Positions 32,404 through 35,529 of a DNA stretch of 64,000 nucleotides are shown here, one piece after another. The notes under the pieces are model-generated. The model saw only the letters and a list, made by a program, of their open reading frames with translations. It searched no databases and was not told where the DNA came from. The translations under genes and the position numbers were made by a program. The stretch is from NCBI RefSeq assembly GCF_012027635.1, contig NZ_SNUS01000001.1, forward strand, positions 868,001-932,000, in the 5' to 3' direction. The stretch's first letter is position 1. Every line of letters begins with the position of its first letter. The stretch comes from Thermococcus sp. 21S9. Lineage in GTDB: Archaea; Methanobacteriota_B; Thermococci; Thermococcales; Thermococcaceae.

Positions 32404-32610
32404 ATGAGTGGGGATTTTGAGAGTGAGATGGTGGATATGCTCCGGGAAAGGGAGTTGACCGTTGCGTTCATCACCCGTTTTCTCACGGAGAGGGGTTTTG
32501 ACGTCACGAGACAGAAGGTTGAGCGGGCCCTCCGGAGGTTGGCCAAGGCCGGTCTCGTTGAGACGAGGGTCGGCAACAACGGTAGAAAACACTACAGGTT
32601 AGCACGGTGA
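32404..32610 (+). CDS. Small winged-helix transcription regulator
   Basis: 68-aa protein that is essentially one winged helix: SEMVDMLRERELTVAFITRFLTERGFDVTRQKVERALRRLAKAGLVETRVGNNGRKHYRLAR. A helix-turn-helix with RQKVERALRRLAKAGLVE as recognition region is followed by the wing. AGGAGG lies at good spacing before 32401-32404 (GTGATG). It is followed, six bases after its stop, by a second HTH protein, and both precede the TasA-like genes, so they are the best candidates for local regulators of that module. Confidence 0.82.
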   Translation: MSGDFESEMVDMLRERELTVAFITRFLTERGFDVTRQKVERALRRLAKAGLVETRVGNNGRKHYRLAR

Positions 32611-32615
32611 TTGCC

Positions 32616-33047
32616 ATGGGGACCTCCTCGGTCATACTCGGAAACAGCAGGAGGATGCTCATGATTGAGTACCTCCAGAAGTCCGACGGGAGGGCCGAGC
32701 TGAGGGATATGGTTGAGTACATAGCCGAGAACGAGGGGAACACTGACAGGAAGCACAGGAAGAGCGTTTACGTGAGCCTGGTTCAGACGCATATTCCGAA
32801 GCTTGAGCGAGAGGGTGTTATAACCTTCAAGCACGGCGTCATAACCCTCGTTAAGGTGCCCGACGACGTTACGGTTTATATGGAGACCGTCAAGAAGAAC
32901 GACATAAGCTGGAGTTCCTTCTACATAGGGCTCTCGCTGATGTTCTTCATAACCGCCCTCTACCTGAACAACCTCCAGCTTGCCCTGGCGTCACTGGTTT
33001 ACGCCGGTGTTGGCGTCATTCACCACAGGAAAATGAAGCGCATTTAG
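32616..33047 (+). CDS. Membrane-anchored HTH protein resembling haloarchaeal DUF7344
   Basis: 143-aa protein. Residues 5-95 form a winged-helix domain (SSVILGNSRRMLMIEYLQ, then VSLVQTHIPKLEREGVITF) whose pattern matches the DUF7344 domain of haloarchaea (NxRRRxxLxxL...YxSLxQTHLPxLxxxGVV). Two transmembrane helices follow (SFYIGLSLMFFITALYL and LALASLVYAGVGVI) and a short basic tail. A DNA-binding domain fixed to the membrane suggests a regulator that senses an envelope signal. GGTGATT precedes the ATG. It is probably co-transcribed with the 68-aa HTH protein. Domain assignment is from memory of the family pattern. Confidence 0.75.
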   Translation: MGTSSVILGNSRRMLMIEYLQKSDGRAELRDMVEYIAENEGNTDRKHRKSVYVSLVQTHIPKLEREGVITFKHGVITLVKVPDDVTVYMETVKKNDISWSSFYIGLSLMFFITALYLNNLQLALASLVYAGVGVIHHRKMKRI

Positions 33048-33097
33048 CCCTTCTTTTCTTGGGTAATCTCCCATTACCGGCCGTTAATCCGACATTT

Positions 33098-33105
33098 CAT
33101 ATATA
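33098..33105 (+). promoter_or_regulatory. TATA box of the TasA/DUF1102-like operon
   Basis: CATATATA is the clearest TATA-like box in the 223-bp gap. A start about 25 bases downstream (near 33125-33130) would place the hairpin GCAACCC-TGCG-GGGTTGC at the very 5' end of the transcript. Confidence 0.55.
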
Positions 33106-33120
33106 CCCCAACGGGCCAAG

Positions 33121-33270
33121 GGATTAGTGAGCAACCCTGCGGGGTTGCAGAGGCACTGCGTTGAGTTCACCGTTGCAGTGGTCGTGAGTGTGTCTTGGTT
33201 TAGGGATGAACCTTCACTCTCACCGCTGGCTTCTCTGCCACAGTGCCTCCTTAATCTGGAGGCGAAAAAG
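33121..33270 (+). promoter_or_regulatory. Highly structured 5' leader, candidate RNA switch
   Basis: The roughly 145-nt leader of the first TasA/DUF1102-like gene holds nested pairings. A 5' hairpin GCAACCC/GGGTTGC (33131-33137 and 33142-33148) comes first. A perfect 9-bp stem GAGGCACTG (33150-33158) with CAGTGCCTC (33241-33249) follows. Inside it, CAGTG/CGCTG and a hairpin GTGAG-T-GTG...GGTT/AACC...CAC-T-CTCAC form. The 3' arm also reads CCTCC (33246-33250), which can instead pair with the ribosome binding site GGAGG (33258-33262) across a 7-base loop. The two pairings exclude each other, so folding of the 9-bp stem would expose the ribosome binding site. Pairings are seen; ligand or signal is unknown. 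Confidence 0.6.
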
Positions 33271-33873
33271 ATGAGAAAGAATCTTGCCCTTGGAATTTTT
33301 GGCCTGTTGGTGGCCTTTGGTCTCGTGTTAGGGGCTGGAGCCAACTTCAGGGACTACAACGCTGAGAGGAGCGTTCACTGGAAGATTGTCAGCGATGACA
33401 ACGAACTCATTGACCTGACCCCCATTCAGCCCTACGCTTACATAAACAGCGGTGGCGTTCTGGTGGTCGACATAAGCCCTGACAACCCGAACTACCCAGG
33501 CTACGGCCAGGGCCTCAGCCCGAACTCGGAGTACAACTTCGACGAGGTCTTTGAGGTAAGCAACGACCTCTGGGAGGACAACATGAGCATAGTCGTCAGG
33601 ATAACCAACGCCAACACCGCGATACAGTTCTACGGAGCGGATGAGAACGTGTACTACCCGGGAACCGGGTCACCAGTTTACGCCAGTGACATGGCGAAGA
33701 ACGATGTTTGCTTCACCGTTGGTCCTGGAGAGGCCGTTAAGGTAGGTATGGACTTCACAGTCGGAAACGCCGCGCTCAACACCACTGAGAGTAGCACCAT
33801 ACACATACAGGCTTGGAGACTCGGCACCGAGCCAAGCGACCTTGTCGGCAAGTGCGGTCAGCCGGGGCAGTGA
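33271..33873 (+). CDS. Secreted DUF1102/TasA-like surface protein, copy 1
   Basis: 200-aa exported protein. The signal peptide NLALGIFGLLVAFGLVLGAGA is followed by the mature start NFRDYNAERSVHWKIVSDDNELIDLTP. The FRxYxAxRS...VVxDDxELIDL pattern fits archaeal DUF1102. A beta-rich body with sequons follows and two late cysteines. It has a tandem paralogue directly downstream and a dedicated signal peptidase two genes on, the arrangement of TasA/SipW fibre operons. Fibre formation is inferred. ATG 33271 has GGAGGCG at seven bases; the frame extends upstream through the structured leader only by chance. Expression is probably controlled by that leader. Confidence 0.8.
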   Translation: MRKNLALGIFGLLVAFGLVLGAGANFRDYNAERSVHWKIVSDDNELIDLTPIQPYAYINSGGVLVVDISPDNPNYPGYGQGLSPNSEYNFDEVFEVSNDLWEDNMSIVVRITNANTAIQFYGADENVYYPGTGSPVYASDMAKNDVCFTVGPGEAVKVGMDFTVGNAALNTTESSTIHIQAWRLGTEPSDLVGKCGQPGQ

Positions 33874-33887
33874 AGGGGGTGTGAAAG

Positions 33888-34424
33888 ATGAATAAACTAT
33901 TTGGATTGGCCTTATTGATGGTTGGAATGCTCCTGGCCGTTGGAGCCGGAGCCAACTTCAGGTATTACTCTGCCGATAGGCAGGCGAGCTTTGATGTCGT
34001 CTCAGACGACAACGAGCTTATTGACTTGACCGCCCTTCAGCCCTACGTGACCTACGACGCGGGAAAGCTTTACGTTGACATCAGCGCCAACAACCCGAAC
34101 TACCCTGAGGGTGCGGGTCAGGGAATGAGTCCGAACACGACTTACGTCTTCGAGGAAATGTTTGAGGTCAGCAATGAGCTCTGGGAGAACGACAACGAGA
34201 GCTACCCGATATGTGTGACCATCACCACCCAGCATGACAACGTCCTTATCTTCGCCGGCGACTACGGGAACGAGACCGCCGGACCGGCTCACAACATCCA
34301 GTTCACCGTTGAGCACGGAAACCCCGTTAAGGTCGGAATGATATTCAACAACACCAACGCCACCCTTGGCCTCGACCAGTTCCAGATGAGCATCTCGGCG
34401 GTTGCCGGAGCCTGCGGACCGTGA
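33888..34424 (+). CDS. Secreted DUF1102/TasA-like surface protein, copy 2
   Basis: 178-aa paralogue of the preceding gene. The signal peptide is LFGLALLMVGMLLAVGAGA, then NFRYYSADRQASFDVVSDDNELIDLTALQPYV. The middle also aligns (ISANNPNYP with ISPDNPNYP, MFEVSNELWENDN with VFEVSNDLWEDNM, and PVKVGMIF with AVKVGMDF). Five N-glycosylation sequons are visible. GGGGGTG precedes the ATG, 14 bases after copy 1. Two similar subunits in tandem suggest a heteropolymer or a major plus minor subunit. It is followed by two hairpins before the signal peptidase. Confidence 0.8.
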   Translation: MNKLFGLALLMVGMLLAVGAGANFRYYSADRQASFDVVSDDNELIDLTALQPYVTYDAGKLYVDISANNPNYPEGAGQGMSPNTTYVFEEMFEVSNELWENDNESYPICVTITTQHDNVLIFAGDYGNETAGPAHNIQFTVEHGNPVKVGMIFNNTNATLGLDQFQMSISAVAGACGP

Positions 34425-34470: not shown

Positions 34471-35529
34471 ATGAAGAAAATACTCGAGTTCACGTTTGCT
34501 TTCATCGTCATTGCCTTTCTCACAGGTTCATTAGTCGGTTTCTTCCTTGACCGTCCCGTGTTTCTGTCGTACGCTTACTCAAGCAGTATGACGCCTACGA
34601 TAGACAAGGGAGACCTCTTCTTGATGAACCCATTCGCCCGGAACTTTGACGTCGGCGACATAATAGTCTTTCACAGGAGTGATGGGTGGACGGTTCACAG
34701 AATCTTCGCGGTTACCGAGGACGGCTTCATAACCAAGGGCGACAACAACGTCGCGACGGACCAGCAGAACGGTCTGTATCCTCCCGTTAAGGAGTCGGAC
34801 GTGGCCGGGAAGGTGGTCGTTCTCTTCGGCAAGCCCCTCGTCCTCAGGGGTGGCGGAGACCTGGTTCAATCCTTAAGAACGAGACTCAGCAACGTCTACG
34901 CGATAGCGATTCTGCTCCTCGTTGGGGCGTTCCTGACCTTCTCGGGAGGCTCCAAGAGAAAAAAGCGAGTTAAGTACTACCGGGTTAGCGTTAAGACACT
35001 CTACGCGGTCGCTTCGGTCTTCATAATCGCCGGCTTCCTCTTCGTGACCGTGGCCTCGTGGGGAACGCTGGCCTTCAGCTACTCCTCCACCCTCGCCGGT
35101 GGACAGAGGGACGGCTGGTACCTGCCAGGTTCAACCTTCGAGAAGAACCTCAGCGTCACGAACAACGCCGTTTACCCGTTCTACTACTTTGTGAGCGGTG
35201 GTAGCGAGAGGGTTCAGCTCCTCGGCCCGACGTTCTTCCGCATCGACGGCGGTTCGAGCGTTAGTGTTCCGGTTCACGTCACGGTTCCCCAGGACACGAG
35301 GATTTACCGCGAGGAGTTCCAGGTGAGGTCTTACCCCGCAATACTTCCCGCTTCCCTCGTGGTCTTCCTGTACTCGTTCAGCCCGTATCTCCCGCTCGTG
35401 GCCTACGCCCTGCTTCTCACTGGATTGCTCGTGGTCTTCTACCGTCTCGCGGGGATTTCGGAGGGCGACATCCTTAGAATCAGAAAACGGAGGGGAAGTC
35501 TTCTCTCCAAGGTACTCGGAGATGGTTAG
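34471..35529 (+). CDS. SipW/ER-type signal peptidase I with extra C-terminal membrane domain
   Basis: 352-aa membrane protease that would cleave the signal peptides of the neighbouring surface proteins. An N-terminal helix is followed by the catalytic Ser39 in YAYSSSMTPTIDKGD and His76 in DGWTVHRIFAV. The His replaces the Lys of bacterial enzymes, as in archaeal/ER/SipW peptidases. KGDNN with Asp91 follows. After residue 150 come at least three more helices and a beta-rich external insert (STFEKNLSVTNNAVYPFYYFV), which ordinary archaeal signal peptidases lack. A housekeeping signal peptidase presumably exists elsewhere, and its position here marks it as dedicated. It overlaps no gene; the next starts two bases after its end. 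Confidence 0.9.
   Translation: MKKILEFTFAFIVIAFLTGSLVGFFLDRPVFLSYAYSSSMTPTIDKGDLFLMNPFARNFDVGDIIVFHRSDGWTVHRIFAVTEDGFITKGDNNVATDQQNGLYPPVKESDVAGKVVVLFGKPLVLRGGGDLVQSLRTRLSNVYAIAILLLVGAFLTFSGGSKRKKRVKYYRVSVKTLYAVASVFIIAGFLFVTVASWGTLAFSYSSTLAGGQRDGWYLPGSTFEKNLSVTNNAVYPFYYFVSGGSERVQLLGPTFFRIDGGSSVSVPVHVTVPQDTRIYREEFQVRSYPAILPASLVVFLYSFSPYLPLVAYALLLTGLLVVFYRLAGISEGDILRIRKRRGSLLSKVLGDG

Follow-up and report, generated by a model that had tools for sequence, protein, structure and literature searches.

Can the RNA leader of a surface-protein operon in Thermococcus sp. 21S9 adopt two folds that exclude each other, with the ribosome binding site (RBS) of the first gene exposed in one and hidden in the other? 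The locus lies in a stretch of 64,000 nucleotides (NZ_SNUS01000001.1, positions 868,001 to 932,000 of the forward strand; the window), where a first-pass annotation had drawn a candidate RNA switch ahead of a TasA/DUF1102-like surface operon. The leader extends over approximately 33126-33270, counted from the inferred transcript start, and the start codon (ATG at 33271) lies 3' of GGAGG (33258-33262). On the evidence of sequence comparison, the orthologous leaders are a real, conserved family of structured RNA built like a translational switch, and the leader is probably (at a rough probability of 0.7) a cis-acting bistable element of translational control. By this reading, the leader would control translation in the cell.

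The strands GAGGCACTG and CAGTGCCTC form a perfect 9-bp stem (P1) around a core of 82 nt (about 80 nt in the first-pass annotation), and a 7-bp hairpin (P0) lies at the likely 5' end; direct reading found these parts where they had been placed (Table 1). The 3' strand of P1 overlaps CCTCC (33246-33250), which had been proposed as an alternative partner of GGAGG. That pairing is available, and is longer than had been described: the hiding hairpin GCCTCC/GGAGGC has 6 bp, or 7 bp when a flanking U-G pair is counted. P1 and the hiding hairpin both use 33245-33249 and are mutually exclusive, so that one state exposes and the other hides the RBS, and both folds are possible in all 34 leaders of the family. 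Among 17 RBSs in the window, one is preceded by CCTCC, and that one belongs to the leader itself.

A search of 61 Thermococcus genomes with the protein encoded by the first gene gave a match in 57, and the upstream regions of these were compared. They form two groups: 34 share the plan of the leader in the window (proteins 70-100% identical), and most of the others are short leaders with a different plan (proteins of approximately 50-65% identity where they align). Assignment by hand of P0, P1 and the hiding hairpin succeeded in 34/34 leaders, and the stems were entered in a stem table (one bulged T was omitted from P1 in three rows). Its 20 distinct stem sets had 94.6% of cells paired, against 40-49% with slid partners, and 7 pairs changed on both sides; none of 500 shuffles was as good. 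A covariance-model alignment of the 34 sequences agreed with the hand-made table: 91.2% of cells were paired (41-48% with slid partners) and 12 pairs had changed on both sides, a count as high as this being found in 0/500 shuffles. Mapped onto a coding-DNA tree, pairs 2-9 of P1 underwent 20 changes, 19 of them pair-keeping (CG to TA and TA to CG included), and the pairs of P0 underwent 18, of which 14 kept the pair; these counts rest on parsimony reconstruction and are indicative. The comparison of orthologous leaders recommended by the first-pass annotation thus yielded compensatory changes in both P0 and P1; the hiding hairpin is beyond such a test because it is nearly invariant. A fixed position before orthologous genes, together with these compensatory changes, marks the element as a cis-acting structured leader. 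Folded alone (155 nt), the leader sequence from the window reaches -60.7 kcal/mol with the hidden state preferred, which is only moderately unusual (z = -2.64; 2/200 shuffles as good), and the comparative evidence is decisive.

For the search of further genomes, a covariance model was built from 17 sequences, with the window and its closest relatives left out. It recovered the element present in the window with a score of 63.6 bits (E = 4e-15) and gave exactly one strong match per genome in 34 of the 61 Thermococcus genomes, always before the same DUF1102 gene and with no second strong copy. Among 115 genomes of the phylum, the covariance-model search found no element outside one Thermococcus group; borderline matches in two genomes (G064 and G041, E = 0.02-0.05) were dismissed on score and position, and the DUF1102 orthologues of Archaeoglobus and Geoglobus lack the element. 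Rfam 15 held no relevant family at gathering or relaxed (E-value) thresholds, in keeping with the earlier failure to recognise a riboswitch class; an S15 leader at 17 bits and a human lncRNA on the other strand were matched at chance level and set aside. The RNA family is undescribed in Rfam and in the literature searched. The sscA RNA, found in the 118-nt leader of TK0308 (aEF1alpha) in T. kodakarensis (PMC4247193), is likewise a long structured Thermococcus leader with a suspected role in translation; it belongs to another gene, that for aEF1alpha, no Rfam match to sscA was obtained here, and identity with it was rejected. A leader peptide is unlikely, as the differences in core length are not divisible by three.

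The distance from the TATA box to P0 is 23-26 nt in 34/34 leaders (standard deviation 0.73), and that from the TATA box to the start codon ranges over 126-180 nt. This constant spacing argues that P0 is anchored to the transcript start, at the 5' end where it had been placed, and makes a start downstream of 33150, which the first-pass annotation had named as fatal to its proposal, unlikely. The median distance from TATA box to transcription start in T. kodakarensis is 23 bp (PMC4247193), and the start in the window is accordingly expected near 33125-33129 (Table 1).

Conservation, covariation and mutual exclusion were read from the sequences themselves; the order of folding and the balance of the two states were computed. 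When the leaders were cut before GGAGG, the median probability of P1 was 1.0 (37°C) and 0.78 (85°C). Leaders that extended through GGAGG had 0.01 (37°C) and 0.13 (85°C) instead, and in them the hiding hairpin reached 0.96 and 0.73, respectively. Because of this difference between the calculated probabilities with and without GGAGG, P1 is expected to form first and the RBS then to compete for its 3' strand. During synthesis of the leader, the 5' strand (GRGGCACTG) would pair with CAGTGCCTC and enclose the folded arm; with P1 closed, GGAGGC would be free once transcribed. GGAGGC would then capture GCCTCC from P1 and so hide itself, which is computed as the more stable finished state in most species. 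Such a leader would be off by default and on transiently, and translation of the DUF1102 filament operon would depend on whatever keeps P1 paired or unfolds the hiding hairpin. By calculation, neither state is lost near 85°C, and both lie near their melting point at growth temperatures.

Several points weigh against bistable control. The hiding hairpin is almost invariant and shows no covariation, its support being conservation and two positions, and several inner pairs of P1 are likewise invariant. The energies rest on extrapolation of parameters that apply to 37°C and 1 M salt, and speak for plausibility only. Neither state is dominant at 85°C in leader L101, and a few leaders, L113 among them, favour P1 at 37°C when complete. 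As for the two positions, the C at 33249 never changes, although in 6 of the 20 distinct sequences its partner in P1 is unable to pair with it, and the C at 33250, which lies outside P1, is C or U in 32/34 leaders (both able to pair with the G of GGAGG), while the next loop bases vary freely. The hiding hairpin is thus kept where P1 does not need it, and therefore appears to have been selected in its own right, independently of P1.

If the leader is a bistable element, what moves it between its states? A protein binding the conserved P0/P1 end is tentatively put first, ahead of temperature, no signal at all and a small molecule, at odds that fall short of even. P0 and P1 retain more sequence than pairing demands, and together with the adjoining junction and the RBS they are the sole conserved parts of the leader. 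One archaeal protein known to regulate translation through kink-turn leaders is L7Ae (PMC5539422, PMC6298567). A pattern scan (C-stem, 3-nt bulge, tandem GA) of the 34 leaders found no recurrent kink-turn, only isolated lineage-specific matches, and in this the family differs from L7Ae leaders. The likeness lies in the sister group, where a box C/D-like kink-turn motif occupies the same place: many of its short leaders carry the pattern of C-stem, NRU, GA...GA and G-stem (L130-L133, L115 and L118 by scan, for example GTGTCTC-ggt-GA-CGTGCCG...GGTGCC-GA-GGGATGC in L130), and further cases were assigned by eye, some with UA for the second GA; the upstream regions concerned are L115, L118 and L121-L134. 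This sister-group motif is possibly an L7Ae site next to the RBS.

RNA thermosensors of the ROSE, FourU and cspA type hold the RBS in a hairpin that is marginally stable at growth temperature, and the calculated stability of the hiding hairpin may be of this kind. Across the leaders, the isolated hairpin keeps to a narrow calculated range of -7.9 to -11.2 kcal/mol at 37°C, and comes to approximately -1.3 kcal/mol at 85°C and close to zero at 95°C; the zero crossing falls between approximately 85 and 95°C, and in many leaders the probability of the hairpin declines from approximately 0.8 at 80°C to approximately 0.4 at 95°C. A plain thermosensor, in which this hairpin melts in the growth range and opens the RBS with heat while P1 competes or buffers, with no ligand or protein involved, would also tolerate the variable core. 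We nevertheless think it unlikely: it needs neither the conserved P0 nor the conserved P1, any GC-rich hairpin of such size would melt in that range, and the parameters are uncertain at 85°C. The leader also differs from the known thermosensors in its conserved second, competing stem and in having no Rfam match to them.

A structure that receives no signal, and merely sets a low translation rate or shields the 5' end, would suit the position of P0, since hairpins at the very 5' end are typical stabilisers, and the hidden state is the calculated default. For such damping a plain hiding hairpin would suffice, whereas P1 has been kept by compensatory changes in 34 species, which points to switching; a constitutive role is accordingly rated rather unlikely.

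In translational riboswitches, a P1 stem overlapping the anti-Shine-Dalgarno sequence is the general architecture. The leader resembles them in its two exclusive folds (possible in 34/34, with P1 covarying), in a P1 strand that carries the anti-RBS, in its terminal hairpin and enclosed arm, and in having translation initiation as its would-be target. A metabolite bound in the arm or at the P0/P1 junction could stabilise P1 and turn translation on. No conserved unpaired block was found in the 34 sequences, the enclosed core spans anything between 43 and 94 nt and lacks a conserved pocket, and a classical aptamer is disfavoured for that reason. The target is a single operon of surface proteins, with no regulon of enzymes or transporters, and there is no Rfam match. 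Of the first-pass suggestion of a riboswitch or thermosensor layout, the conserved two-fold leader therefore stands, the thermosensor is consistent with the melting that was calculated, and the ligand riboswitch is unsupported; we consider the last of these improbable. Chance pairing in a GC-rich leader, to which only the modest single-sequence z score lends weight, can be dismissed on covariation, the covariance-model search and the phylogenetic distribution unless the alignment is wrong.

A more speculative reading, and a doubtful one as a whole, is that of an undescribed archaeal switch working at approximately 80-95°C, in which two stems near melting compete over the RBS of a TasA-like filament operon, as a sensor of heat or of another signal, with a sister group that has a kink-turn leader at the same place. 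The 2014 transcriptome study of T. kodakarensis (PMC4247193) stated that, in Archaea, control by riboswitches or attenuators had no direct experimental support in vivo. Archaeal translational switches are still few, and the leader adds a compact and conserved candidate that makes precise predictions. If true, it would show how an RNA switch can operate close to the temperature at which its helices melt, and by what means archaea regulate surface proteins of the filament or matrix-like kind.

Table 1. Coordinates of the leader, its promoter and the first genes of the operon in the window.
Feature	Position	Strand	Remarks
Operator (putative)	GGTAAT 33062-33067; ATTACC 33073-33078; half-site GTTAAT 33083-33088	+	just 5' of the TATA box; function inferred
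TATA box CATATATA	33098-33105	+	from sequence; start expected ~20-23 bases downstream, near 33125-33129
P0, 5'-terminal hairpin GCAACCC/GGGTTGC, 7 bp	33131-33137 with 33142-33148	+	present in 34/34; AU to GC changes on both sides in several lineages
P1, 5' strand GAGGCACTG	33150-33158	+	pairs with 33241-33249; pairing would free the RBS
Core within P1, long imperfect arm	33159-33240	+	43-94 nt across species; length and sequence vary; arm from constrained folding
P1, 3' strand CAGTGCCTC	33241-33249	+	overlaps anti-RBS CCTCC (33246-33250)
Anti-RBS GCCTCC	33245-33250	+	alternative partner of GGAGGC; GCCTCC in 31/34, GCCTCT in 1, GCCTCG in 2
RBS GGAGGC	33258-33263	+	invariant in 34/34; followed by GAAAAA or GGAAAA
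First operon gene, DUF1102, TasA-like	33271-33873	+	PF06510, E = 9e-54; weak TafA fimbrial-protein match far below cut-off
Second DUF1102 gene	33888-34424	+	PF06510, E = 4e-55
Archaeal signal peptidase I, similar to SipW	34471-35529	+	TIGR02228, E = 3e-17, above cut-off; NF046067 (SipW), E = 5e-8, below cut-off

The description of the operon as TasA/DUF1102-like held for both first genes, which match PF06510 (Table 1). The likeness of DUF1102 proteins to TasA is presumed here from knowledge of the family, together with the SipW-like peptidase; a search of solved structures for it returned nothing convincing. The DUF1102 genes and the SipW-like signal peptidase resemble the tasA-sipW arrangement of Bacillus, and further genes of the operon probably encode exported proteins.

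Upstream of the TATA box, GGTAAT-N5-ATTACC with its additional half-site is probably a transcription-factor site. The pattern GTAA-N-TTAC with a third GTAA/TTAA before the TATA box was found, with one regular expression, in 52 of the 57 orthologous promoters, and the operon is therefore probably also controlled at transcription. A candidate binder of this operator is encoded by the adjacent gene (DUF7344, 32607-33047), whose product may be a winged-helix regulator.

All 34 leaders have GGAGGC as RBS, where GGAGGT would pair best with 16S rRNA, and the hiding hairpin needs the final C; the flanking GAAAAA is nearly as invariant, and descent alone could also account for the constant GGAGGC. Three compact leaders (L047:1681-1740, L114 and L116) carry a GTGCCTC/GRGGCAC hairpin before the RBS, with the order of the strands reversed relative to P1, and that of L047 also contains GGAGGCG; they may be the same switch in a minimal form, or a convergent one. 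Elsewhere in the window, Rfam matched Pab91, an H/ACA guide RNA, at 2855-2911 on the minus strand.
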